From an uncultured Colwellia sp. (lineage in GTDB: Bacteria > Pseudomonadota > Gammaproteobacteria > Enterobacterales > Alteromonadaceae): 64,000 nt of DNA. A model generated the notes under the pieces. That model ran no database searches, was not told where the DNA came from, and worked only from the letters and a program-made list of their open reading frames with translations. The translations under genes and the position numbers were made by a program. Position 1 is the stretch's first letter. Each line of letters opens with the position of its first letter. Positions 52,167 through 64,000 of the stretch are shown in pieces. The stretch spans positions 1 to 64,000 of the forward strand of contig CAJXQI010000019.1 of assembly GCA_913058395.1 (NCBI GenBank), in the 5' to 3' direction.

Positions 52167-52472
52167 GTGTTCTATAGATTATCCTACTAGGTTTATACAA
52201 TTAATGGTTCATTATTTATAGTCAATATATAGGTGATGCTGATGTTGCGAAAATGTATCGCTCCCTTTGTTATTTTTCCATAGTGATAACTATATCGTTG
52301 ACCTTTATGGAAAATTATTTTGTTCAAACTTTGGTTTTATTCATACTCTGAGCAGAACTATGCCGTAGGACTACCAACCGAAGATATTCCCATCTAGCCG
52401 ATAGCAAGGTTAAGCGGATATTCCTGAATGAATAGATCATTCTGAGATTTAAAATGCGCCTAAAACTAACAT

Positions 52473-52502
52473 TGAACTTTATTGCTGATTCTTTCGTATT
52501 TA
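52473..52502 (+). promoter_or_regulatory. ECF (ChrR-partner) promoter of the small-protein operon
   Basis: TGAACT (52473-52478), 16 bases, CG, TATTTA (52497-52502). Same layout as five other promoters in this island. Start of transcription near 52509, 20 bases before the ATG at 52529. Confidence 0.6.
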
Positions 52503-52528
52503 TTAGAAATCAATATCGGAGAATTGTT

Positions 52529-52798
52529 ATGCATTCAAATTCAACATCTTGTTTACTGCCTGTGATAATTGGTGTTTCAGATTCAAGTCACTATTTAGTT
52601 GGAATGATAGACTCGAGAGATAACCTTGGCGGCTTAGAACAAAATACAAAGGCAGCAATGTTTACATCGCTAGTCGATGCTAAAGCCTATTTACGCCGAC
52701 ATAATATTTTTTCAGCATTACTTGAGTTTCAAAGTGCTTATGATGAAATGTGTGGTCAGTCTACTTTTGGTTGTTATCGTGAAAAGGTTTCATTTTAA
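52529..52798 (+). CDS. Small protein of unknown function
   Basis: The 89-residue protein starts MHSNSTSCLLPVIIGVSDSS and continues YLVGMIDSRDN and a C-terminal helix with DAKAYLRRHNIFSALLEFQSAYDEM. The frame is open to 52454, but GGAG eight bases before 52529 and a promoter at 52473-52502 make that earlier start impossible for this transcript. No family is named with confidence. The stop overlaps the next start (TAATG). Confidence 0.7.
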   Translation: MHSNSTSCLLPVIIGVSDSSHYLVGMIDSRDNLGGLEQNTKAAMFTSLVDAKAYLRRHNIFSALLEFQSAYDEMCGQSTFGCYREKVSF

Positions 52799-53064
52799 TG
52801 ATGGAAAAAAATCAAATTGTTTTAAATGATGTATTGCAGGCTTTTAATTTAGTTCTTGTTAAAGGCTATAAAGTTGATAGTTGTTATGAGTATCAGGGAG
52901 TGAAAGCTTGGCATGATTTTGATGGCTATACTTGCTTTTTAAGTTATAAAGATCTGACATTAACATTACTTTTTCATGGTCGTTATACGGTAGATTTTCA
53001 GCAACAAGAAACCTTGAGTACCTTTGTATCTAAGGTTAATAAACTATTGGCTTCAAAGGCATGA
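52798..53064 (+). CDS. DUF3081 family protein
   Basis: The 88-residue protein has a helix (VLNDVLQAFNLVLVKGYKVD) then WHDFDGYTCFLSYKDLTLTLLFHGRYTVDFQQQE, the DUF3081 pattern (FDGYT...L.FH.KY..D). The function is unknown. It overlaps both neighbours by 1 and 4 bases, so the three genes are translationally coupled. Either of two adjacent ATGs may be used. Confidence 0.82.
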   Translation: MMEKNQIVLNDVLQAFNLVLVKGYKVDSCYEYQGVKAWHDFDGYTCFLSYKDLTLTLLFHGRYTVDFQQQETLSTFVSKVNKLLASKA

Positions 53065-53276
53065 ACAGAGTAAGCCCGAAAGTGCTCTTACATAGTAAAT
53101 GGACTAAGCTGAATGTTGAAAATAGAGAAAAGCATTTTATTATTACAAAGGTTCTATTTGATGAGCAGAATAATGTTGTTGAATGCATAATAACTGCGGT
53201 TATTAATAAGCGAGAGTATTCCATTAACTGGCGAGATTTAAAAAAGCCAACACTTTGGCGGTTTGGTTGGCAGTGA
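53061..53276 (+). CDS. TIGR02450-family Trp-rich protein
   Basis: The 71-residue protein reads NRVSPKVLLHSKWTKLNVENREKHFIITKV, then INKREYSINWRDLKKPTLWRFGWQ, the TIGR02450 signature (N.I.PK.LL.SKWT...KEKHF...). The function is unknown, but homologues commonly sit near photolyase and ChrR clusters (recollection). It is last in the three-gene operon. Confidence 0.88.
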   Translation: MNRVSPKVLLHSKWTKLNVENREKHFIITKVLFDEQNNVVECIITAVINKREYSINWRDLKKPTLWRFGWQ

Positions 53277-53287
53277 AATGCTGGCGT

Positions 53288-54025
53288 TTACCACTTAATT
53301 TCTTTACCTTGCCAATCTAAAAAACTAGCCTTTTGATCAAATGCCTGTACGGCAATGATCTTTAAAAGCTGTTGCGCTACAAACTTTGCGGTAAATAATT
53401 TACCTTCCGGAACATTTTTCTGAAATGGCTTTGACAGTTTTGTGTCTGTTGTGCCAGGGTGGAAAATAATAACTTTTGTATTTTTTGAACGTCTTGAAAG
53501 CTCTATCGCAACATTTTTTAGCATCATGTTCAAAGCTGACTTTGATGCTCGATAGCTATACCAACCTCCTAAATTATTGTCTTCTATACTGCCGACACGA
53601 GCACTAAAAACAACGAGTCTACAGTCTTCTTTTGAAGTAAGTAAAGGTACTAATGCTTTTATCCAAAGTATTGGGGTTAAAGCATTTACTTGCACAATAG
53701 ATAAGAAAGATTCCGCACAAAAATCTTCGATACGTTTTTCTGGGGTTATAACATGGTTGTGCAACAAACCGTGGCAAATGTATATTTGCTTAAGCACTAA
53801 ATTTTCGACTTTCCTAATTTCATTAACTGTATTTTCGATCGTAGATGGCTGGTAATCATCAATCAATATTTTAGTCAGCTGCACAGAAGTAATATTGTCA
53901 TATGTTGAGAGATCTCGACTGATAATAATTATATTTGTGTTGGACTTCGCTGCTAAGAGTTCTAGCACCACGGCTTGAGCTATAGCGCTACTAGCCCCTA
54001 TTATTAATATATTGTCTTTAGACAT
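53288..54025 (-). CDS. Short-chain dehydrogenase/reductase
   Basis: The 246-residue Rossmann enzyme has the cofactor motif IGASSAIAQA (variant of TGxxxGIG), catalytic Ser in VFSARVGS and the YxxxK motif YRASKSALN, with HPGTTDTKLS near the end. The frame extends to 54148, but GGAG stands just before the ATG at 54025 and the extra residues are not SDR-like. It follows DUF3429 by 41 bases. SDRs of this subtype (CsgA-like) recur in ChrR/photolyase islands. Confidence 0.9.
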   Translation of the reverse strand: MSKDNILIIGASSAIAQAVVLELLAAKSNTNIIIISRDLSTYDNITSVQLTKILIDDYQPSTIENTVNEIRKVENLVLKQIYICHGLLHNHVITPEKRIEDFCAESFLSIVQVNALTPILWIKALVPLLTSKEDCRLVVFSARVGSIEDNNLGGWYSYRASKSALNMMLKNVAIELSRRSKNTKVIIFHPGTTDTKLSKPFQKNVPEGKLFTAKFVAQQLLKIIAVQAFDQKASFLDWQGKEIKW

Positions 54026-54066
54026 TATCAGCTCCTGTGATTTATGTGTTTTGAATTGAAATATTT

Positions 54067-54477
54067 TTACCACAATAAAAAGGCAATAATATGTATCAAA
54101 ATGACTAGCGCGGTTAAGTGGAAACGCATTATTAGATAATCCCTGCAATTAGGGGCATTGCGGTCAAAGAAATACTCGCAACCTAACAGCGCCGAGTATG
54201 ATGTCGCTAATACTATGATTGCAACTTGGTGAGAACAAAGTAACGAGGCAAAGGCTAGTAAGCTAAAAAGGTTACTTAGCAGTTGTCGTTTTGTATTTAC
54301 ATTACTACTTTGCTGTCGCCATAACGTTCCTGAAACAAAACTGAGGATAATAGCACTGTAGAATATAAATATTTGTGCGGGCGACTGAGTAAATAACTTT
54401 ACGTCTGTGTAATCTAAAGCCAATGTTAATGCGAAAGGTGCAAGGCCTAAATAGCCTAAATACTGTTTTGTTTGCAT
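54067..54477 (-). CDS. DUF3429 membrane protein
   Basis: The 136-residue protein has five hydrophobic segments: YLGYLGLAPFALTLAL, IFIFYSAIILSFVSGTLWRQ, LLSNLFSLLAFASLL, VAIIVLATSYSALLG and LTALVILIHIIAFLL. The SGTLW motif is typical of DUF3429. The function is unknown. It is the first gene of a two-gene unit with the SDR, with an ECF-type promoter 29 bases upstream. Confidence 0.88.
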   Translation of the reverse strand: MQTKQYLGYLGLAPFALTLALDYTDVKLFTQSPAQIFIFYSAIILSFVSGTLWRQQSSNVNTKRQLLSNLFSLLAFASLLCSHQVAIIVLATSYSALLGCEYFFDRNAPNCRDYLIMRFHLTALVILIHIIAFLLW

Positions 54478-54505
54478 AAAAATCCCTTCAAATTGTTTCT
54501 CTTAT

Positions 54506-54535
54506 GTTTTACGAAAGTTATCGGTTATTCGATCA
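54506..54535 (-). promoter_or_regulatory. ECF promoter of DUF3429-SDR
   Basis: On the minus strand: TGATCG (54535-54530), 16 bases, CG, TAAAAC (54511-54506). Start of transcription near 54500, about 22 bases before the ATG. Confidence 0.75.
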
Positions 54536-54605
54536 TAAAAGGTACTATTTAGTTATTTTTAAAGTGATTTAAATTTTAGTTTTATGATCTAAATAGCAAC
54601 TCAAT

Positions 54606-54635
54606 TAATCTAATTCAGCACCTAGTACGTATAGC
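54606..54635 (+). promoter_or_regulatory. ECF promoter of the DUF2878 operon
   Basis: TAATCT (54606-54611), 16 bases, CG, TATAGC (54630-54635). One mismatch from TGATCT at -35. The leader to the ATG at 54669 is about 27 bases. Confidence 0.6.
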
Positions 54636-54668
54636 TACTTAACATTAAAAGAAGGTAGTGATGCGACG

Positions 54669-55196
54669 ATGAAAAATTTATCCTATAGGTTGAGTAAATG
54701 GAGCATAGTTAACCTAGTCGGTTTCAATATAACTTGGCTTGGACTGATTTTTTTCGGTAATAGCTTTATTCCTTTTGCCGCTACTTTGTTTATTTTTCAC
54801 TTATATTTTCAAGCAGAAAAAAATGAGTTAGTACTTATCCTACTTGTAGCAACCATAGGTGTGTTACTCGACAGTACATTGGAGTACAACAGCATATTTG
54901 TTTTTCCTAAAACTGAATATATTCCTCTTTGGTTAATTACTCTTTGGTTCTGTTTTGCTGCGACCATTCGACATAGTTTAGGTTTTTTAGCGCAATCGAA
55001 AATACTGCAACTTTTAGTTGGTGGCATTGCCGCGCCACTAAGTTATTTGGCAGGGGCAAAATTCTCCGTAGTGCACTTAACTTTATCTACAGGCTTAAGC
55101 TACTTATTACTTGCATGTATTTGGGGGCCGTTATTAGTTGTTATTTTTTTGATGAGTGAAAGGGTAGGTATAGAGGAGAAGTGTTATGCGGAATAA
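54669..55196 (+). CDS. DUF2878 membrane protein
   Basis: The 175-residue protein has about five membrane helices. Segments such as VLLDSTLEYNSIFVFP, YIPLWLITLWFCFAATIRHSL and GGIAAPLSYLAGAKF match the DUF2878 pattern. The function is unknown. It overlaps the next gene by 11 bases. The set DUF2878, chalcone-isomerase-like, DUF3833 is a recurring trio in marine ChrR islands (recollection). Confidence 0.88.
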   Translation: MKNLSYRLSKWSIVNLVGFNITWLGLIFFGNSFIPFAATLFIFHLYFQAEKNELVLILLVATIGVLLDSTLEYNSIFVFPKTEYIPLWLITLWFCFAATIRHSLGFLAQSKILQLLVGGIAAPLSYLAGAKFSVVHLTLSTGLSYLLLACIWGPLLVVIFLMSERVGIEEKCYAE

Positions 55197-55821
55197 AATA
55201 ATTAGCCACCTAACATTGAAGACTCTTAAAATATTCTGCACTAGTCTGTGTATATCAAGCTACGTCATCGCAGATGATGCCAAGGTAAACTTAAAGGATA
55301 TTGAAATTGCCAATTCGAATAGTTGCCAAACCGTTAATGCTAAACCCTTAACCAGCAGTAATTTCGGTAAGCTAATTGAAAATAATAATTTGAAATTATT
55401 GGGAACGGCGAAGTTTTCAGTACTTTTTTGGGATATTTATGAAAGCAGATTACTCACTTCTGATGGGCAATTGCCGTTAAGTCACCCCTGTCAGTATTCT
55501 ATGTTTGAAATAAAATATTTGCGAGACATCACTAAGCAAGAGTTAATAGAGAATACTGTTGCTCAGTGGCAGCATTTAGCAATAACTGAGAAAGAATACC
55601 AACCGTATTTGGTAGCACTAAAAAATATTTGGCCTGATATTAGAGCTGGTGACCAACTTATCTTACTTAACAATGCGACAACAACTCTGTTTTATTTCAA
55701 CCAACAAAAAGTTGGTGAAATTGAAAGTGAAGTATTCGCCGATTTATTTTTACGAATTTGGTTAGATGAAAACACTAGTGAGCCAACATTGCGTAAGCAG
55801 CTTCTAGGAGAATTAATATGA
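55186..55821 (+). CDS. Exported chalcone-isomerase-like domain protein
   Basis: The 211-residue protein has a signal peptide (to about residue 30) and a body with LLGTAKFSVLFWDIYESRLLTSDGQLP, FEIKYLRDITKQELIENTVAQW and a C-terminal LRIWLDENTSEPTLRKQLLG. This is the pattern of bacterial chalcone-isomerase-like proteins, which lack known isomerase activity. It is likely periplasmic. It overlaps its neighbours on both sides (11 and 4 bases). Confidence 0.88.
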   Translation: MRNKIISHLTLKTLKIFCTSLCISSYVIADDAKVNLKDIEIANSNSCQTVNAKPLTSSNFGKLIENNNLKLLGTAKFSVLFWDIYESRLLTSDGQLPLSHPCQYSMFEIKYLRDITKQELIENTVAQWQHLAITEKEYQPYLVALKNIWPDIRAGDQLILLNNATTTLFYFNQQKVGEIESEVFADLFLRIWLDENTSEPTLRKQLLGELI

Positions 55822-56369
55822 AGAGCTTTTATAGATTGAGCATATTGCTGATAGTTCTATTATCGTTGTCGAGTTGCACGACAAAGTTAGCAGAATACCA
55901 AGCAACATCACCTACCTTCGATATCAAAACATACTTCACTGGCAATATTGTGGCTTGGGGCATGGTTCAAGATTATACCAACAATGTTACTCGCCGCTTT
56001 TGTGTAGAAATTGATGGTCAATGGCAAGGTAATAAAGGGCTACTTAAAGAAGTGTTTTATTTTGTTGATGGTGAGGTAAGTTATCGTAATTGGCAGTTAA
56101 CAAAACTTGCGCAAGGTAAATATCAGGGCAGTGCCGAAGATGTTGTAGGTCAAGCCTATGGCCAGCAGGTTGGCTTTGCTTTTCAATGGCAGTACAACTT
56201 ACTAGTGCCAATTGATGGTGACCAAATACAGTTTTCACTTGATGATTGGATGTATCAAATTGATGAATATCGTGTTTTCAATCGTACTGAAATGAAAAAG
56301 TTTGGTGTCACACTAGCTGAAATTACGTTATTTTTTGATAAGCAATTACCGGATAAAAAGTGCCAATGA
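55818..56369 (+). CDS. DUF3833 lipoprotein
   Basis: The 183-residue protein has a lipobox LSSC (Cys19). The body reads DIKTYFTGNIVAWGMVQDYTNNVTRRFCVEIDGQWQ...LLKEVFYFVDGE...YQGSAEDVVGQAYGQQ...DDWMYQIDEYRVFNRTEMKKFGV, the DUF3833 pattern. It has a lipocalin-like flavour and may bind a lipid or pigment, but that is unproven. ATGA overlaps the previous stop. Confidence 0.9.
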   Translation: MKSFYRLSILLIVLLSLSSCTTKLAEYQATSPTFDIKTYFTGNIVAWGMVQDYTNNVTRRFCVEIDGQWQGNKGLLKEVFYFVDGEVSYRNWQLTKLAQGKYQGSAEDVVGQAYGQQVGFAFQWQYNLLVPIDGDQIQFSLDDWMYQIDEYRVFNRTEMKKFGVTLAEITLFFDKQLPDKKCQ

Positions 56370-56498
56370 GCATATATTTGTTGTTGGCTACCCGACAAAA
56401 TTAAATAATTTTCGCACCAAATTACAAGCTCAGACTCTAAATTCTCTTGCGGCTCAATTTAAGCATTTTAGTTAAACTACTAGCTTAAAAACTAATTG

Positions 56499-56560
56499 AT
56501 TAATTAATTGAATAATTAATTGAATAATTAATTGAATAATTAATTGAATAATTAATTGAA
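56499..56560. repeat. 12-bp minisatellite, about five units
   Basis: TTAATTGAATAA is repeated in tandem with exact 12-base spacing of its ATTG (56510, 56522, 56534, 56546, 56558) in the spacer before the fasciclin gene. Each unit is a multiple of three bases, so it is frame-neutral. Confidence 0.9.
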
Positions 56561-56655
56561 TATATTGACTAAATTCTGCATCAGAAACGCTTTCATTTCT
56601 TCGTTCAATCCAAGCAATACGCGCATACTGATGATAAAGATCACCGGCTAAAAAT
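56560..56655 (-). pseudogene. Possible coding remnant on the minus strand
   Basis: One minus-strand frame reads FLAGDLYHQYARIAWIERRN then ESVSDAEFSQYIQ and continues into the 12-bp repeat as IQLI repeats. The composition is protein-like, but there is no start codon and no known family. Confidence 0.35.
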
Positions 56656-56679
56656 AATTAATTTTATTCAAATTATTTA

Positions 56680-56709
56680 TGATCTGTTTGATTTTTAGCC
56701 TCGTAATTC
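56680..56709 (+). promoter_or_regulatory. ECF promoter of the fasciclin gene
   Basis: TGATCT (56680-56685), 16 bases, CG, TAATTC (56704-56709). Leader about 36 bases before the GTG at 56752. Confidence 0.75.
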
Positions 56710-56751
56710 TACCTGTAATGCAAATAAGTGTTTAAATAAGAGGGTAAGCAG

Positions 56752-58935
56752 GTGAGAAATTTAAAAGTACTAGGAATAGCCGTTATAAGCTTGTTATTTT
56801 TACAAGCCTGTAACGATGATGATAAAAAAGATATTGTGGTTACGCCACCAACCGTCGTGACTAATACCATTGTTGATGTTGCAGTAGCTAATGGCAGTTT
56901 TACAACACTTGTCGCTGCTTTACAAGCAACAGGGCTAGACGCGACATTAGCCGATACGACAAGTAGTTTTACTGTTTTTGCACCAACCGATGAAGCCTTT
57001 GCCTTACTAGGGCAAGATACGATAAACGCCTTACTTGCAGATACCGATACGCTGTCTGATATTCTAACCTACCATGTTATTAGTGGCGAAGTGAATGCCA
57101 CTGCTGCTATTGCCAGCGCAGGCACTACAGTTGCCATGGTAAATGGTGATAGTGTGGGGTTATCACTTGATGGCGATAACCTATTGGTAAATACCGCAAC
57201 GGTTACCATAACCGATATTCAAGCTGATAACGGTATTATTCACGTGCTTGACGCTGTGCTACTACCACCTGCAGATAAAGGTGAATCAACAATGAATATT
57301 GTTGAAACCGCTGTAGCAGCAGGTAACTTCACTACCCTAGTGGCTGCATTACAAGCTGCAAACCTTGATAGTGCGCTAGCAGACGAAACGAAAACTTATA
57401 CTGTATTTGCACCAACTGACGCTGCATTTGCGTTGATTGGTACTGAAACGATTGCAGCACTGCTAGCTGATACCGATGCTCTAACAAGTATATTGTTGCA
57501 GCACGTGATTGATAGTGAAGTTTCTTCAGTAAGAGCATATTCATTGAATGGCATGACAGCTAAAACCTTATCAGGGGCTGAAATTACTATTGCCATTAAT
57601 AGCATTGCGGACAGTTTAATGTTTGGTGGAGCAAATATTACGGTTAAAGATATATACACAACCAATGGCGTGATTCATGTTATTGATATGGTTGTAGTTG
57701 GTGATGTTGAAGTACCGACGCCTACCAATAGCATTGTGGATGTTGCGGCAGAAAACGGTAGCTTCACAACCTTAGTTACTGCTTTACAAACAACTGGCTT
57801 AGATACTGTTTTGGCGGATCTTGAAGGTGAGTTCACCGTATTCGCACCAACAGATGCTGCTTTTGCGCTGTTAGGTGAAGAAACCATTAATGCGTTACTG
57901 GCTGACCCTGATGCTTTAGCCAATATTTTACTCTATCACGTTGTCTCAGGTGCAACAGTTTTACAAGATGCAGCGGTTACCATTGCTCAGTCTGACAATA
58001 AAATGGTTACCATGGCGAACGAGCAAATGTCGACATTATCGTTGTCTGGCTCTGCATTATTCATTAATAAATCAGCTGTATCAGCGGCAAATGTGATGGC
58101 TGATAATGGTGTAATTCATGTTGTTGACCAAGTTATTTTACCACCAACAGTAAAGGCTGAACCTACCATGAGCATTGTTGATGTAGCTGTGGGGGATGAA
58201 AACTTCTCTACCTTAGTCGCTGCATTAACTGCTGCTGACCTAGTGGACACATTAGCTGATGAAACTGCAACCTTTACTGTATTTGCACCAACCAATGCTG
58301 CGTTTGCAAAAATAGAATCTAGCACACTAAATACTTTACTCGCTGATACGAGTGCACTAACCGATGTGTTGTTAACTCATGTAGTTGGCGGTGCTGAGGT
58401 TAACTCTTTGGCTGCCTTTGCTGCAAATGGCGCTATGGTAGAAACTGCCAGTGGAGCAAATGTTGCTGTTACACTAGTTAATTTTAGTCAAACAGCTAAT
58501 TCTAGCAATGATGAAGTAGCTTATGACAGCGCCGCTGAAATATTGGTTGGTGGCATGAACTCAGCTAAAAATGGTTACACTTTATATGTATTCGACAATG
58601 ATTTAGGTACGGCGGGCAGTACTTGTAATGACGGGTGTGCCTCCAATTGGCCGCCGGTACTAGTAACGGACAATGAAGTAGACAACATTAAAGGTTTGGC
58701 AATGGTGATGCGTGACGACGGTAGCATGCAAGCAACCTATTTAGGTCGTCCACTTTATTTTTATGTCGGCGATACACAAGCCAATGATATGAATGGCCAG
58801 GGGGTGAATGATGCTTGGTGGAAGGTTTCACAAGAACAAGTAGCACTGCAAGTGCAAGGTTCAAATGTCACTGTTACTGATATTTACACAACCAATGGTG
58901 TTATTCATGTTATTGACACTGTTATTACAGATTAG
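56752..58935 (+). CDS. Four-domain fasciclin (FAS1) lipoprotein with an inserted Lipoprotein_15-type domain
   Basis: The 727-residue protein starts at GTG with GAGGG seven bases upstream and has a lipobox LQAC (Cys20). FAS1 domains span about 36-172, 178-316, 325-465 and 473-727. Each shows the H1 box FTVFAPTDxAF and the H2-like DNGVIHVVDxVILP. The fourth is interrupted at about 577-696 by a module with LVGGMNSAKNGYTLYVFDND and CNDGCASNWPPV, typical of the secreted repeat with Y-x4-D motif (PF03640-like, from memory). The protein then resumes FAS1 with TVTDIYTTNGVIHVIDTVI. FAS1 proteins mediate surface adhesion, and several bacterial ones are under ECF control. An ECF promoter lies upstream. 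Confidence 0.88.
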   Translation: MRNLKVLGIAVISLLFLQACNDDDKKDIVVTPPTVVTNTIVDVAVANGSFTTLVAALQATGLDATLADTTSSFTVFAPTDEAFALLGQDTINALLADTDTLSDILTYHVISGEVNATAAIASAGTTVAMVNGDSVGLSLDGDNLLVNTATVTITDIQADNGIIHVLDAVLLPPADKGESTMNIVETAVAAGNFTTLVAALQAANLDSALADETKTYTVFAPTDAAFALIGTETIAALLADTDALTSILLQHVIDSEVSSVRAYSLNGMTAKTLSGAEITIAINSIADSLMFGGANITVKDIYTTNGVIHVIDMVVVGDVEVPTPTNSIVDVAAENGSFTTLVTALQTTGLDTVLADLEGEFTVFAPTDAAFALLGEETINALLADPDALANILLYHVVSGATVLQDAAVTIAQSDNKMVTMANEQMSTLSLSGSALFINKSAVSAANVMADNGVIHVVDQVILPPTVKAEPTMSIVDVAVGDENFSTLVAALTAADLVDTLADETATFTVFAPTNAAFAKIESSTLNTLLADTSALTDVLLTHVVGGAEVNSLAAFAANGAMVETASGANVAVTLVNFSQTANSSNDEVAYDSAAEILVGGMNSAKNGYTLYVFDNDLGTAGSTCNDGCASNWPPVLVTDNEVDNIKGLAMVMRDDGSMQATYLGRPLYFYVGDTQANDMNGQGVNDAWWKVSQEQVALQVQGSNVTVTDIYTTNGVIHVIDTVITD

Positions 58936-58972
58936 CGCTTTCTTAACCCATTAAACAATTGCTGTGCCTTTT

Positions 58973-59010
58973 GCCCCTTACTTTTGATTATTAGTACAGG
59001 GGCTTTTTTT
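58973..59010 (+). terminator. Rho-independent terminator after the fasciclin gene
   Basis: GCCCCT (58973) pairs with AGGGGC (58998), followed by seven T residues. The last T is also the first base of the TGATCG -35 of the next promoter. Confidence 0.8.
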
Positions 59011-59039
59011 GATCGTTTTCTACCTTTGCAACGTATAAC
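59010..59039 (+). promoter_or_regulatory. ECF promoter of the LON-domain gene
   Basis: TGATCG (59010-59015), 16 bases, CG, TATAAC (59034-59039). Leader about 31 bases to the ATG at 59077. Confidence 0.78.
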
Positions 59040-59076
59040 TAGTTATCAGTTCATTTGCAGTATCTAATTCAACTTT

Positions 59077-59655
59077 ATGACAACATTTAACTTGCCCATT
59101 TTTCCTTTGCCTATTTTCTTGTTACCTCAAGGTATTACCCGCTTGCGTATTTTTGAAGCACGCTATTTAAAAATGGTTTCGCTAGCGATGAAAAATAATG
59201 GTTTTGTGATTTTGCCAAATGCAAGTGCATCTGCATCAGAGCTAAAAGCAATAGGAAGCTGGGTGGAAATTATAGACTTTGATCAAAGCGAAAATGGTCT
59301 GCTGTTGATTGATGTTCGCTGCAAATGTTTGGTTGATGTTAGTGCATTGCAGCAAGATGAAAAACAGTTACATCATGCACAAGTCAATCGCAGAGCACAT
59401 TGGTCAGAAACTCGCGTAAATGAAACTAACGACAAAATTGCATCATCACTAAAGCAGGTTTTTAGCCATAATAGTGAGTTGGATAACCTGTACGTTGATA
59501 AAAATTTTCAACTAGCAAACTGGGTTGTAGCACGCTGGTTAGAATTATTGCCAGTTAAGCTCGATGAAAAAAATGCTTTTATCGAACAAGATTCATTTCA
59601 CCACGCTATGCAATTTGTTGAGGCTATTATTCTGGCAGAAGAAAGTAATAATTAA
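59077..59655 (+). CDS. Stand-alone LON substrate-binding domain protein
   Basis: The 192-residue protein matches the Lon N-terminal (PUA-like) domain: LPIFPLPIFLLPQGITRLRIFEARYLKMVS at the start and a helical C-terminus. No AAA+ or protease part follows. Such small LON-domain proteins are common in proteobacteria, with unknown roles in substrate recognition. It has its own ECF-type promoter, which starts in the T-tract of the preceding terminator. Confidence 0.92.
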   Translation: MTTFNLPIFPLPIFLLPQGITRLRIFEARYLKMVSLAMKNNGFVILPNASASASELKAIGSWVEIIDFDQSENGLLLIDVRCKCLVDVSALQQDEKQLHHAQVNRRAHWSETRVNETNDKIASSLKQVFSHNSELDNLYVDKNFQLANWVVARWLELLPVKLDEKNAFIEQDSFHHAMQFVEAIILAEESNN

Positions 59656-59693
59656 CCCAATTTTCGCGATAAGTAAAAAGTATTAAAATAATG

Positions 59694-59723
59694 TGATCTC
59701 ATTTCAAGATTACAGCGTATAGG
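59694..59723 (+). promoter_or_regulatory. ECF promoter of the sigma-chrR operon (autoregulation)
   Basis: TGATCT (59694-59699), 16 bases, CG, TATAGG (59718-59723). Leader about 23 bases to the sigma-factor ATG. Confidence 0.75.
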
Positions 59724-59752
59724 TTGTTAAGTGGAAATAATGGATAAACGTT

Positions 59753-60379
59753 ATGCCGTCTGTTCAATCAAAGTTGCCAAGTCATCAAGCAGCTGTTACA
59801 CCTAGTAACATGACTAATAAAATTGATCATCCTCAACTTTGTCAATGGCTTAAATTAATAGCTGTTAACCGAGACAAGCAAGCGTTTACTGCTGTGTTTA
59901 AGTTTTTTGCTCCTAAAATAAAGCGTATTGCACAAAGTAAATTCAATAATGAAGCGCAAGCTGCAGAAGTGGTGCAAGACACTATGTCCAATGTTTGGCG
60001 TAAATCGCACCTATTTGATGACAGTAAAGGTGCGGCGACAACATGGGTTTATACCATTATGCGTAATGTTACTTTCGACATGTTGCGTAAAGTTAAGGCC
60101 AATAAAGAAGATAATCTCAGTGATGATATTTGGCCGCTCGCAGAGTCAATGAACACTGAGGAAGAGACTTTTACCGACCATATTCAAAATCGTAATTTAA
60201 AAGGTGTTATTGAGACGCTGCCTGAAAATCAGCAGCAAGTGGTGAAAGGGTTTTACTTTTTAGAAATGTCTCAAGAACAGCTTGCTGAACACCTTAATTT
60301 GCCATTAGGAACCGTAAAGTCGCGGCTTCGTCTCGCGCTTGGCAAACTTAAGATTAAACTAGGAGATCACCATGATTAA
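59753..60379 (+). CDS. ECF sigma factor, ChrR-associated RpoE type
   Basis: The 208-residue sigma-70 family protein has region 2 (AFTAVFKFFAPKIKRIAQSK, AEVVQDTMSNVWRKSHLFDD, ATTWVYTIMRNVTFDMLRK) and region 4 (LPENQQQVVKGFYFLEMSQEQLAEHLNLPLGTVKSRLRLAL). Region sequences and the following ChrR place it in the singlet-oxygen-type ECF group of Rhodobacter RpoE. It overlaps chrR by 8 bases. Six promoters in the island have the layout expected for this group (TGATC.. and a TA-rich -10). Confidence 0.94.
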   Translation: MPSVQSKLPSHQAAVTPSNMTNKIDHPQLCQWLKLIAVNRDKQAFTAVFKFFAPKIKRIAQSKFNNEAQAAEVVQDTMSNVWRKSHLFDDSKGAATTWVYTIMRNVTFDMLRKVKANKEDNLSDDIWPLAESMNTEEETFTDHIQNRNLKGVIETLPENQQQVVKGFYFLEMSQEQLAEHLNLPLGTVKSRLRLALGKLKIKLGDHHD

Positions 60380-61058
60380 GCACCATCCTAAATTTGAATT
60401 ATTGCAGAACTTTGTTAATGGTGATTTACCCGCTTCATTGTCTGCAGGTATCGCGATTCACGCGGATATGTGTCCTCAATGCCAAGAAAAAATTAGTCAA
60501 TTGACCGAGCAAGTAGCAGAAGCGAGTTTCGAACAAAACTTCTTACATAAGTTCGTTGTTGATGATGAAGATATGGCTGAAGTTGCTGAATTAGAATTTG
60601 ATAGCATTATTGATGAAATTACCGCTTCTGACGATATCGAGTCAGTTAAAATACATAATGAAGGGCCATCTATCGAATTTAAGGGCAGTGAGTATGTTCT
60701 ACCAAAAGCGATACGTAATATTGAATTAGGTAAAACCGCTCAAATTGGTAAGTTATCAAGAGCACGTTTGCAGTTGGATGAAGGTGAAATTCACACTAGC
60801 TTATTGCACATTGATCCCGGTGGCTCTGTGCCCGAACATACTCATAATGGTTTTGAATTAACCTTATTATTGGCAGGTTCATTTACTGATGAGCAAGGAG
60901 AATATGTTGCAGGCGACTTCATCATGCTTGATAAACGTCACCAACATCATCCGGTATCAGAACATGGTTGTCTTTGTTATACCGTTGCTAACGACTCACT
61001 GCACTTTACGCAAGGTATTAATAAGTTACTAAACCCTATTGGGTCTTTCATCTATTAG
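60372..61058 (+). CDS. chrR: ChrR-type anti-sigma factor with cupin domain
   Basis: The 228-residue protein has an N-terminal zinc anti-sigma domain (HADMCPQCQEKI gives HxxxCxxC at about 28-35, with upstream His4/5) and a C-terminal cupin (PGGSVPEHTHNGFELTLLLAGSFTDEQGEYVAGDFIML, HQHHPV, then Cys-Leu-Cys). ChrR inactivates its ECF sigma until singlet oxygen or related stress triggers its loss. GGAG precedes the ATG inside the sigma gene. Confidence 0.95.
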   Translation: MIKHHPKFELLQNFVNGDLPASLSAGIAIHADMCPQCQEKISQLTEQVAEASFEQNFLHKFVVDDEDMAEVAELEFDSIIDEITASDDIESVKIHNEGPSIEFKGSEYVLPKAIRNIELGKTAQIGKLSRARLQLDEGEIHTSLLHIDPGGSVPEHTHNGFELTLLLAGSFTDEQGEYVAGDFIMLDKRHQHHPVSEHGCLCYTVANDSLHFTQGINKLLNPIGSFIY

Positions 61059-61070
61059 TTGGAGATGGTT

Positions 61071-62030
61071 ATGTCTAATAAATTCGAAAAAGAAGATATT
61101 GTTGTTGGCATTAGTGCTTGTTTAAATGGTGAAAAAGTTCGCTTTGATGCCAGTAATAAGCCATCAAATTTTTGTATGCACGAGTTAGGGCAGCATGTCA
61201 CTTTTAAAGCCTACTGCCCTGAAGTAGCGGTTGGTTTACCCGTACCTAGACCAACCATACGTTTGATCAAAGATGAACAAATGATCAAAGTTGCACGGCC
61301 TGATGGTTCAGGCGATGTTACCGAAGCAATTAAAGCTTACGGTAAAAAAGTGGCTAGTATGTCCAAAAACCTAAGTGGTTATATTTTCTGTGCGAAAAGT
61401 CCAAGTTGCGGTATGGAACGCGTAAAGGTTTACTCGCCAGAAGGCAATCCACTGCAGGCTCATGGCATTGGTGTTTTTTCCAATGAAATTATGAAAGCTA
61501 ACCCGTTGTTGCCATGCGAAGAAAATGGTCGTCTTAATGACGCGGTTATTCGTGAAAACTTTGTCGCTCGCGTTTATGCCTATCGTCGCTGGCAGGCGCT
61601 TGAAGCTTCAGGTATTAGTAAACACAAATTAATGACCTTTCACGCACAGTATAAATATACCTTGATGAGCCATAATTTAGTTGCCTATAAAACATTGGGA
61701 CGATTATTAGCAAGGGCTGATTTGGCTGTTGATGAGATGGCGGCACAATACATTCTTGGTTTAATGACAGCATTAAAGCTTAAAGCAAGTCGGAAGAATC
61801 ATGCGAATACCTTGTTGCATATCCAAGGCTATTTTTCTAAGCATTTAAATAAAGTGCAACGACAAGAGCTTTCGGAGCAAATACATGCCTACCGTATAGG
61901 CTTGATGCCACTAATGGTGCCATTAACCTTGATTAAGCATTACTTATTACAACACCCTGAGTCATATATCGAGCAACAAGCTTATTTGGATCCTTATCCA
62001 ACAGCACTGAAATTACGCTACGGATACTAA
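61071..62030 (+). CDS. ybgA: YbgA-family DUF523-DUF1722 protein
   Basis: The 319-residue protein has an N-terminal DUF523 (VVGISACLNGEKVRFD, FKAYCPEVAVGLPVPRPTIRL, FCAKSPSCGMERVKVY), with several conserved cysteines, and a C-terminal DUF1722 (HAQYKYTLMSHNLVAYKTLGRLLA). The frame opens at TTG 61059. The ATG at 61071 has GGAG six bases upstream and is preferred. E. coli ybgA is also next to phrB. Its biochemical role is unproven. Confidence 0.92.
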   Translation: MSNKFEKEDIVVGISACLNGEKVRFDASNKPSNFCMHELGQHVTFKAYCPEVAVGLPVPRPTIRLIKDEQMIKVARPDGSGDVTEAIKAYGKKVASMSKNLSGYIFCAKSPSCGMERVKVYSPEGNPLQAHGIGVFSNEIMKANPLLPCEENGRLNDAVIRENFVARVYAYRRWQALEASGISKHKLMTFHAQYKYTLMSHNLVAYKTLGRLLARADLAVDEMAAQYILGLMTALKLKASRKNHANTLLHIQGYFSKHLNKVQRQELSEQIHAYRIGLMPLMVPLTLIKHYLLQHPESYIEQQAYLDPYPTALKLRYGY

Positions 62031-62096
62031 TAAACGGATTTGCTAGGCTATTTCCTCTAAGTTTTAATATTCATTAATAAGTACTAAGGAAAGTCA

Positions 62097-63482
62097 TTGT
62101 TACTTTGGTTTCGCAACGACATTAGAATAAACGATAATCCAGCTTTACATTATTTCCTTGAGCGGCATCATGGCTCTGAAGTGGGTAAAGCTGTTTTTTT
62201 TGTCAGTGAAAAACAGTGGCAAAAGCATGATTGGTCGCCGATAAAGATTGATTTTATTAAACGCCATGTCAATGCTCTTGCACAGCAGTTATTGTCGCTC
62301 AATATTGTGTTGCAAGTAGAGTATTGCGATGACTTTACTGATCAAGTTGCGTTTTTAAAGCACTATTGCCGTCAGCATAATATTGATGAAGTTGTTGCCA
62401 ATAAAGAACTAGAAGTGAATGAAAATTTACGCGATAAAGCCTGCCTGGAACAGGGGCTTAAACTACGCTTATTTGAAAGCGATGTTATTGTTGAAAAAGG
62501 TAAGGTACTTAATAAAACTGGCGATATGTATAAGGTATTTACACCTTTTAAACGTGCCTGGCTTACCTATGTAAAACAGCAAGGGTTTAGCTACTTAGGT
62601 AAACCGGTAATATCAAAATCAAGCCAAGTATCAAGCGAACTTCTAACACCTATTATTTGTTCTGGTGAATCGAATGCATGGCCATTAGTTTCGCAAGTCG
62701 AGCAACAAGTTATTCCAACGTTCTTTCAAGACAAAGTGCAGTGTTACGGACAAGAGCGTGACTTTCCGGCTATCAAGGCAACGTCTGGCCTCTCGCCATA
62801 CTTGGCTATTGGCGCCATTAGCCCACGCTATCTTTTAACCTTGATGATACAACGTTTCCCCGATATTTTACTTGCCGCTGATAGTGACGAATTTGTATGG
62901 TTGAACGAAATAATCTGGCGCGAGTTTTATCGTCATCTAATGTTTCATCAAGAAAAATTATCAAAACATCAATCTTTTAATGATAAATACAGTGCGACTG
63001 TGTGGCCTAATAACCCCCAATATTTCCGAGCATGGTGCGAAGGGCGAACAGGTTATCCTTTGGTCGACGCGGCCATGGCACAACTTAACCAAACGGGCTG
63101 GATGCATAATCGGCTGCGCATGGTTGTTGCAAGTTTCTTAACCAAGCACTTATTAATTGATTGGCGCTGGGGCGAGAAATACTTTATGGAAAAACTTATT
63201 GATGGCGACTTAGCAGCCAACAATGGTGGTTGGCAATGGGCTGCTAGTACTGGTTGTGATGCTCAACCGTATTTTCGTGTTTTTAACCCTATTCGCCAAA
63301 GTGAAAGATTTGATCCTGATGGTGAGTTCATTCGTAAGTATCTACCAGAGCTGGCGGATTTACCAAGTAAGCAAATTCATTTTCCACATGCTTATATTGC
63401 CAAAGAAAATTTAGATGTTTACTGGCCGGCGATTGTAGAGCATAAAGCCGCCCGATTAGCTGCCATTGAGTTTTATCGATAG
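62097..63482 (+). CDS. phrB: Deoxyribodipyrimidine (CPD) photolyase, class I
   Basis: The 461-residue protein has an N-terminal antenna-binding domain (LLWFRNDIRINDNPAL) and a C-terminal FAD domain (ATSGLSPYLAIGAIS, IIWREFYRHLM, GRTGYPLVDAAMAQLNQTGWMHNRLRMVVASFLTK, DGDLAANNGGWQWAASTGCDAQPYFRVFNP). These match E. coli PhrB closely, including the Asn-Asn-Gly-Gly-Trp-Gln-Trp lesion pocket. It repairs UV dimers with blue light. Translation starts at TTG with AAGGA six bases upstream. Confidence 0.97.
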   Translation: MLLWFRNDIRINDNPALHYFLERHHGSEVGKAVFFVSEKQWQKHDWSPIKIDFIKRHVNALAQQLLSLNIVLQVEYCDDFTDQVAFLKHYCRQHNIDEVVANKELEVNENLRDKACLEQGLKLRLFESDVIVEKGKVLNKTGDMYKVFTPFKRAWLTYVKQQGFSYLGKPVISKSSQVSSELLTPIICSGESNAWPLVSQVEQQVIPTFFQDKVQCYGQERDFPAIKATSGLSPYLAIGAISPRYLLTLMIQRFPDILLAADSDEFVWLNEIIWREFYRHLMFHQEKLSKHQSFNDKYSATVWPNNPQYFRAWCEGRTGYPLVDAAMAQLNQTGWMHNRLRMVVASFLTKHLLIDWRWGEKYFMEKLIDGDLAANNGGWQWAASTGCDAQPYFRVFNPIRQSERFDPDGEFIRKYLPELADLPSKQIHFPHAYIAKENLDVYWPAIVEHKAARLAAIEFYR

Positions 63483-63533
63483 CGAGTATCAATGCCTTAA
63501 CGGGCTGTGGTAAATAATTAATAAAGAGTCATT

Positions 63534-64000
63534 ATGCTAAATCAACAAATGAAGCCAATTGATGAAATAAATAATGTAGCTAAGCACGCACCTTGGCTGG
63601 CTAATTTCATCAATGTTTATCAAAAGCTTTCAACTGATAATTTACATCTACTTGCTGATATTTATCACCAAGATATTGTCTTTATTGATCCTATGCATCA
63701 GCTGACAGGTTTAGAGCATTTACAACATTACTTCAATAACCTTTACCAACAGCTTAGCTATTGTGAATTTAAAATTGAAAATGTGATTGAACAAAATAAT
63801 GAAGCGGCAGTTTATTGGCAGATGAGCTATCAGCACCCACGCTTAAATGCTGGAAAAATTGTCAATGTGCAAGGTAGTTCACATATTAAAGGCTTAAATG
63901 ACAAGGTTATTTATCATCGTGATTACCTTGATTTAGGCGCGATGTTATATGAGCAACTACCGTTATTAGGACGCATTATTTCTTGGCTTAAAAATAGGGC
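63534..64000 (+). CDS. NTF2/SnoaL-like protein, 3' end outside the window
   Basis: An open frame of 155 codons from the ATG at 63534 runs off the right edge. It reads NFINVYQKLSTDNLHLLADI, YHQDIVFIDPMHQLTGLEHL, then NNEAAVYWQMSYQHPRLNAG and IKGLNDKVIYHRDYLDLGAM, the cone-shaped NTF2-like fold. Members of this type follow photolyase in many ChrR islands (recollection). It starts 51 bases after phrB on the same strand. The ligand or activity is unknown. Confidence 0.88.
   Translation, partial: MLNQQMKPIDEINNVAKHAPWLANFINVYQKLSTDNLHLLADIYHQDIVFIDPMHQLTGLEHLQHYFNNLYQQLSYCEFKIENVIEQNNEAAVYWQMSYQHPRLNAGKIVNVQGSSHIKGLNDKVIYHRDYLDLGAMLYEQLPLLGRIISWLKNR

Follow-up and report, generated by a model that had tools for sequence, protein, structure and literature searches.

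A probable clustered RpoE-ChrR-type regulon in a Colwellia genome, with a candidate second branch in other marine Gammaproteobacteria

The right-hand end of a 64,000-nucleotide stretch of an uncultured Colwellia sp. genome (assembly GCA_913058395.1, contig CAJXQI010000019.1; this whole stretch is called the window here) carries genes for an extracytoplasmic function (ECF) sigma factor and a ChrR-type anti-sigma factor, together with six promoter-like sites that share one layout. The question raised by this locus is whether these sites bind the sigma operon and its neighbours into a single regulon. Our analysis makes it likely, with a probability of nearly nine in ten, that the genes form a clustered ECF11-type RpoE-ChrR regulon against photooxidative stress, in which TGATC-N17-CGTA promoters drive the sigma operon and five neighbouring units. 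A first-pass annotation of this DNA had proposed the same arrangement, an autoregulating sigma operon plus five neighbouring transcripts, and it is supported by position in the genome, by conservation, by published promoters and by a control genome that lacks the sigma factor. Positions are those of the window, features are collected in table 1, and C19 denotes the contig that continues past the window edge.

The identity of the regulatory pair is clear. Among solved structures the sigma factor is closest to Rhodobacter sphaeroides RpoE (2q1z, E 1.8e-32; the next match is at 2e-11), and its closest named relatives by protein sequence are from Colwellia. The adjoining anti-sigma protein scores 169 bits against the TIGR02451 cut-off of 124.5, and all eight zinc ligands of R. 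sphaeroides ChrR (H6, H31, C35, C38, H141, H143, E147 and H177) are matched in it, by H5, H30, C34, C37, H156, H158, E162 and H192 (a manual count in an alignment whose N-terminal stretch is weak). Thus a ChrR-family anti-sigma factor adjoins an ECF sigma factor, as in group ECF11, and the TGATC-N16..18-CGTA sequence that marks ECF11 autoregulation is present in exact form before the sigma gene at 59694. Besides rpoE and chrR, the published core ECF11 genes are phr, cfa, RSP_1091 (FAD), RSP_1090, RSP_1087 (short-chain dehydrogenase, SDR) and RSP_1088 (lipoprotein). Beyond the window edge the sigma operon continues, by Pfam matches, with SDR, FAD amine-oxidase-like, DUF1365 and cyclopropane-fatty-acid (CFA)-synthase-like genes to about C19:68097. 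We take RSP_1090 to be a DUF1365 protein, and phr, cfa, FAD, SDR and DUF1365 of the core set are present in the operon. Its FAD, DUF1365 and CFA genes may encode Ufa-type (UfaO/UfaM) enzymes of the furan fatty-acid pathway.

All six 30-mers named in the first-pass annotation, at 52473 (+), 54535 (-), 54606 (+), 56680 (+), 59010 (+) and 59694 (+), are present letter for letter. Its consensus, TGATCK-N16-CG-TAWWWV, fits three of them and not the other three; the core common to the sites is TGATC-N17-CGTA, exact at 54535, 56680, 59010 and 59694 and with a single -35 mismatch at 52473 (TGAAC) and 54606 (TAATC). The start codons, which had been placed 20–40 bases downstream, lie 26–42 nucleotides (nt) from the end of the -10 element. 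Site 52473 was initially classed as coding because an over-long open reading frame (ORF) begins at 52454; for the DUF6482 gene the Pfam match, the GGAG ahead of position 52529 and the relatives favour the later start.

In the genome it is position, not number, that sets the core apart. The literal consensus occurs at five places, three of them in the cluster. The 95.9-kb contig has eight exact core matches at spacer 17 and zero or one at each of ten other spacers (12 to 22), and the region itself holds six: four promoters, 56643 (-) and 63311 (+). In the whole 4.39-Mb genome, spacer 17 gives 31 matches, as many as the reversed control (31), and spacer 16 gives 18, so the count alone is no proof. 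Of the 31 matches, 25 are coding and six intergenic (by ORF tiling, without a gene caller). The four intergenic matches that stand 33–47 nt ahead of a correctly oriented ORF are all within the cluster; the other two, 56643 (-) in the cluster and C16:78893, have no downstream ORF. For seven 100-nt upstream stretches in the cluster, which were picked by the finding itself, a Markov background gives P of about 6e-14 for at least four exact matches and about 2e-13 for at least six with no more than one mismatch, and in real 100-nt segments from positions 1–51000 the exact core occurs in 2/2040 and the core with up to one mismatch in 11/2040.

Genome-wide, the two variants seen in the cluster, each with CGTAWW, give 25 (TGAAC) and 16 (TAATC) matches. 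Apart from 52473 and 54606, three of these are intergenic ahead of an ORF elsewhere and one is intergenic without an ORF. The three, before genes named by eye from their sequence as lipoprotein-like (C3:119948), DnaJ-like (C2:272711) and outer-membrane-like (C24:27696), have one mismatch and no further support, and we do not claim them as targets. Only these two one-mismatch variants were placed, with the set of 105 matches outside the classification, so weaker distal targets are possible. We also reject C16:78893, which has no Rfam match and is present in the same-genus, sigma-less genome G091: the intergenic TGATC-N17-CGTA of G000:C16:78893 (L118) has its counterpart there (L379), preserved without the sigma factor. 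Scans for sigma-70-like promoters (35 found vs 41.6 expected) and for terminator-like structures (9 vs 9.0) were at chance level and are not used.

The sites are conserved in relatives at the expected genes. We examined 40 loci of the family (L062-L101; up to one mismatch, spacer 17, within 400 nt) and the best 80 of 549 loci from named genomes (Colwellia, Psychromonas, Thalassotalea, Vibrio, Pseudoalteromonas, Shewanella and others; spacer 17, within 250 nt); the sets overlap, some loci being the same DNA. In the family loci the motif precedes sigma in 31/40, LON in 28/36, fasciclin in 14/15, DUF2878 in 23/25, DUF3429 in 2/2, DUF6482 in 3/3 and SDR in 1/1 (a locus in which no DUF3429 gene was found), while control genes have it in 3/25 (chalcone-isomerase-like, CHI), 1/25 (DUF3833), 1/40 (ChrR), 4/36 (YbgA), 3/36 (photolyase), 0/7 (LysR) and 0/3 (DUF2389); DUF3081 gives 3/3 because it lies directly behind DUF6482. 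Letter shuffles give 0–8%, and 15% for the sole SDR locus. Exact matches in the named loci precede sigma in 67/80, LON in 55/71, fasciclin in 8/12, CHI in 5/52 and DUF2878 in 2/49, and other genes in 0–2, save DUF3429 (2/2) and SnoaL; with one mismatch allowed, LON rises to 61/71 and DUF2878 to 20/49, its misses including loci in which DUF2878 follows cfa. Other spacers are near zero except 16 (nine sigma, four LON, one or none for others), 18 (three sigma) and 21 (six DUF2878).

The SnoaL gene might seem to have a seventh promoter, as a match lies upstream of it in 37/37 family and 63/77 named loci. We reject this candidate: the window's match is part of the photolyase coding sequence, and the score is high because in most loci the photolyase motif FDPxGxFIRKY encodes the match. 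This promoter-like sequence (63311-63336, +) is exact and is kept in relatives through that motif, a trap for motif scans. Among the exceptions is L081, in which an exact match stands in a non-coding-looking stretch 93 nt upstream of SnoaL.

Could another ECF sigma factor read these promoters? Many ECF sigma factors have CGT-type -10 elements in common, and the genome has eight matches to the sigma query. We consider this very improbable: with spacers 16–18 allowed, 79/80 named loci have the motif ahead of the sigma gene, the core equals the published promoters of the homologous systems in Vibrio cholerae, Shewanella oneidensis and Pseudomonas syringae, and promoter-placed exact sites are absent from the one sigma-less genome examined. 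That genome, G091, has no sigma orthologue (best E 2.6e-10), DUF3081, DUF3429 or fasciclin match at E<=1e-60, and of its 22 exact matches 21 are coding and one, the counterpart noted above, is intergenic without an ORF. 

Families of two units co-occur with the sigma factor across 147 family genomes, of which 18 were scored as lacking it (best E >1e-25): DUF3081 is present in 104/129 genomes with sigma vs 2/18 without (p 1e-8) and DUF3429 in 83/129 vs 1/18 (p 2e-6); for the fasciclin gene (E<=1e-60) the figures are 24/129 vs 0/18 (p 0.045). These p-values are weakened by shared ancestry and incomplete assemblies.

Three of the neighbouring units have parallels elsewhere. The first-pass annotation did not know LON or fasciclin membership to be established; it is in fact known from other bacteria, since the Lon-domain gene SO_1987 of Shewanella oneidensis is induced by RpoE2 (PMC4336711) and the table of the RpoE regulon of R. 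sphaeroides lists fasciclin RSP_1409, and an Azospirillum fasciclin protein is described, in a secondary citation, as under RpoE-ChrR control. Among nine fasciclin genes away from sigma, the motif is present in exact form within 60 nt for four. Many loci of Vibrio, Shewanella and Pseudoalteromonas have the DUF2878-CHI-DUF3833 genes behind cfa within one block of genes, and in many of those from Colwellia, Psychromonas and Thalassotalea they lie upstream of LON, sometimes with a fasciclin gene between. In G139:C25 and G087:C1 (L355, L357, L359-L361) fasciclin genes match in several consecutive stretches, as if extended internally or duplicated. Between DUF3833 and the fasciclin gene of the window, the ORF-less exact match at 56614-56643 (-) sits in an open stretch, LAGDLYHQYARIAWIERRNESVSDAEFSQYIQL, that resembles a gene remnant, and 5.8 copies of a 12-bp tandem repeat, TAATTGAATAAT, adjoin this stretch at 56493-56562. 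A GCCCCT/AGGGGC inverted repeat with a T-run (58973-59015) lies 3' of the fasciclin gene and runs into the -35 element of the LON promoter; the terminator scan did not flag it.

For the small-protein and DUF3429-SDR units we found no published precedent: at the level of titles and abstract beginnings the literature gave no link of DUF6482, DUF3081, DUF2389 or DUF3429 to ChrR, which is weak evidence of novelty. The kind of regulon, like LON and fasciclin membership, is already known. This block adjoins sigma in the window, and of five relatives in the same genus three (G007, G143 and G056) have all or part of it there; in these three a TGATC or TGAAC version stands 28–59 nt before the block's gene; in a fourth, G119, the block is on contigs other than that of sigma. 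DUF6482, DUF3081 and DUF3429 were not found in the 14–20 kb around sigma in 36 loci of other genera.

In other genera these families occur in a second setting. We analysed, for each search, the best 29 matching loci besides that of the window (DUF3081 has 105 matching genomes, DUF3429 has 83), accepting TGATC, TGAAC, TAATC or AGATC as motif or variant and counting as unlinked those on another contig or at least 0.2 Mb away. Within 450 nt, a motif or variant at spacer 17 precedes DUF3081 in 18/29 and DUF3429 in 10/29, with zero or one at twelve other spacers; without the same-genus loci that adjoin sigma (three DUF3081 and two DUF3429, all with the motif) the values are 15/26 and 8/27. The DUF3429 cases divide by context: within 850 nt the motif or a variant is found in 15 of 16 loci that have other module genes or belong to the sigma cluster (unlinked loci alone, 13 of 14) and in none of the 13 without, where there are three matches at spacer 11 and one at spacer 14. 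Wider regions have a convergent layout, DUF6482-DUF3081-CIA30-(HAD)-DUF2389 facing SDR-DCC-DUF3429-flavin reductase. In 20 such regions, chosen after the motif test and read by eye (Pfam was run on examples), a motif or variant is present in 14/19 forward units (G119 is among the misses) and in 18/20 reverse units, and a manual count of order-level DUF3081 loci gives an exact upstream match in four of eight in module context. In L322 and L323 the flavin-reductase gene of the module is separate and has an exact promoter motif to itself. In L268 (G124) the genes LysR-DUF6482-DUF3081-DUF2389 are grouped as they are in the window, but at a distance of about 0.6 Mb from sigma, and a variant, AGATC-N17-CGTA, lies upstream. 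The block in the window is a reduced module that has no CIA30, DCC or flavin-reductase gene at this position. We think it somewhat more probable than otherwise that this convergent two-promoter module is a second branch, so far undescribed, of the RpoE-ChrR regulon in marine Gammaproteobacteria, and that a reduced form of it joined the sigma locus in the genome of the window and in some of its Colwellia relatives, so that the detectable regulon is one island. The complex-I-assembly-like, thiol-disulfide and flavin-reductase domains of the module suggest that it repairs light-damaged flavin or respiratory proteins.

Several observations weigh against a regulon of this extent. The raw genome-wide match count is not above its control, two of the six sites have a -35 mismatch, the relatives are not independent of one another, and five of the nine unlinked fasciclin genes lack the motif. 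The published ChIP-Seq motif of Pseudomonas syringae is TGATCC-N16-CGTA and 54 of 87 motif peaks are intragenic, so that, by analogy, non-promoter sites may also bind. The small-protein unit is affected most: its site (52473) is one of those with a mismatch, the DUF6482-DUF3081 unit of G119 lies elsewhere and has no motif, the motif is missing from 11 of 26 unlinked DUF3081 loci, and of 21 order-level loci outside module context just two have it before DUF3081. The true targets could then be limited to the sigma operon and LON, with fasciclin and DUF2878 as possible additions, and the small-protein and DUF3429-SDR sites could be due to neighbourhood or chance. Such a restricted regulon appears improbable to us in view of the other genera, where, away from sigma, 13 of 14 DUF3429 loci in module context carry the motif or one of its variants at spacer 17 and none at other spacers, more than half of the DUF3081 units have it, and both families co-occur with sigma.

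In the regulon of six transcripts that we favour, zinc-bound ChrR would keep the sigma factor inactive, and loss of ChrR would free it to direct RNA polymerase to TGATC-N17-CGTA promoters. It would drive its own operon, sigma-chrR-ybgA-phr-snoaL-SDR-FAD-DUF1365-cfa, in a positive feedback, and also DUF6482-DUF3081-DUF2389, DUF3429-SDR, DUF2878-CHI-DUF3833, the fasciclin lipoprotein and the LON-domain protein; the activity of these promoters and the co-transcription of the genes behind them are predicted from their arrangement. Among the products, the photolyase would probably repair DNA, CFA/FAD/DUF1365 would modify membrane lipids, and the small-protein/DUF3429 module would restore envelope or redox proteins. 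By analogy the signal may be singlet oxygen, organic peroxide or blue light. It is possible, if rather unlikely, that the regulon is real and its main inducer is not singlet oxygen but peroxides, nitrosative or other stress acting on ChrR: hydrogen peroxide raises the transcripts of Shewanella rpoE2 and chrR, and the mutant shows sensitivity to both peroxide and paraquat (PMC4336711), organic peroxides elicit the response of ChrR systems, and nitrosative stress is named in the title of a Vibrio paper. On the other hand, the photolyase and lipid genes point to light, and V. cholerae responds to blue light (PMC5241685).

Table 1. Genes and predicted promoters of the cluster (window positions)
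Feature	Position	Strand	Basis
Promoter of DUF6482-DUF3081-DUF2389, TGAAC-N17-CGTA	52473..52502	+	site read; same-genus relatives
DUF6482 small protein, 89 aa	52529..52798	+	PF20090 E 1.7e-8; GGAG before ATG 52529
DUF3081 small protein, 88 aa	52798..53064	+	PF11280 E 2.2e-24
DUF2389/TIGR02450 Trp-rich small protein, 71 aa	53061..53276	+	PF09493; TIGR02450 over cut-off
SDR, second gene of DUF3429 unit	53288..54025	-	PF00106 E 3.8e-16
DUF3429 protein, 136 aa	54067..54477	-	PF11911 E 4.7e-22
Promoter of DUF3429-SDR, exact TGATC-N17-CGTA	54506..54535	-	site read; genome scan
Promoter of DUF2878-CHI-DUF3833, TAATC-N17-CGTA	54606..54635	+	site read; relatives often TAATC too
DUF2878	54669..55196	+	PF11086 E 8.7e-34
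CHI protein	55186..55821	+	PF16036 E 1e-12
DUF3833	55818..56369	+	PF12915 E 1.6e-62
Promoter of fasciclin gene, exact core	56680..56709	+	site read; genome placement; relatives
Lipoprotein-like fasciclin protein, GTG start	56752..58935	+	PF02469 E 4e-118, 5 stretches; PF03640 (Lipoprotein_15), 2 stretches
Promoter of LON-domain gene, exact core	59010..59039	+	site read; genome placement; relatives
LON substrate-binding-domain protein	59077..59655	+	PF02190 E 1.8e-11
Autoregulatory promoter of sigma operon, exact core	59694..59723	+	site read; genome placement; relatives
ECF sigma factor, RpoE of RpoE-ChrR type	59753..60379	+	PDB 2q1z chain A E 1.8e-32; NF009178 over cut-off
ChrR zinc anti-sigma factor	60372..61058	+	TIGR02451; zinc ligands aligned
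YbgA-type protein (2-thiouracil desulfurase-like + DUF1722)	61059..62030	+	PF04463, PF08349
PhrB-type DNA photolyase	62097..63482	+	PF03441, PF00875
SnoaL-like protein, truncated by window edge	63534..64000	+	PF12680

The locus offers a compact regulon, in which six transcripts on a single island share one class of promoter, with a sigma-less relative of the same genus for contrast. It ties families of unknown function (DUF3081, DUF6482, DUF2389/TIGR02450 and DUF3429) to a defined stress response, and a review of ECF11 calls for the functions of extended regulon genes. The separate conserved module may reveal which parts of the cell are hurt by light in non-phototrophic sea bacteria.

Of the known systems, that of S. 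oneidensis RpoE2-ChrR (PMC4336711) has promoters of the same TGATCC-N16-CGTA type (two mapped starts), autoregulation, a ybgA-phrB-cfa operon and, judged by locus number, a Lon-domain gene adjoining sigma. Its units have scattered locus numbers (SO_1986, SO_3386, SO_3349 and SO_4169), whereas the sites found here form one cluster, and its pgpD-hemH2 genes are absent from this locus, to which the search for them was confined. The V. cholerae SigmaE-ChrR blue-light regulon (PMC5241685), in which ChrR and SigmaE govern light-induced genes, likewise has a TGATC-N16-18-CGTAW promoter; 159 genes are reported to be ChrR-dependent there, and promoter-placed exact matches occur here in this cluster only. 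With R. sphaeroides RpoE-ChrR, the founder of ECF11 (PMC6852236, PMC7074977), the window shares the zinc ligands of ChrR, the SDR, FAD, phr and cfa core and a fasciclin member (RSP_1409). Unlike R. sphaeroides it has no rpoHII or folE2 at this locus (no rpoH search was made), and beyond the R. sphaeroides set it adds LON, DUF2878-CHI-DUF3833 and the small-protein/DUF3429 module.

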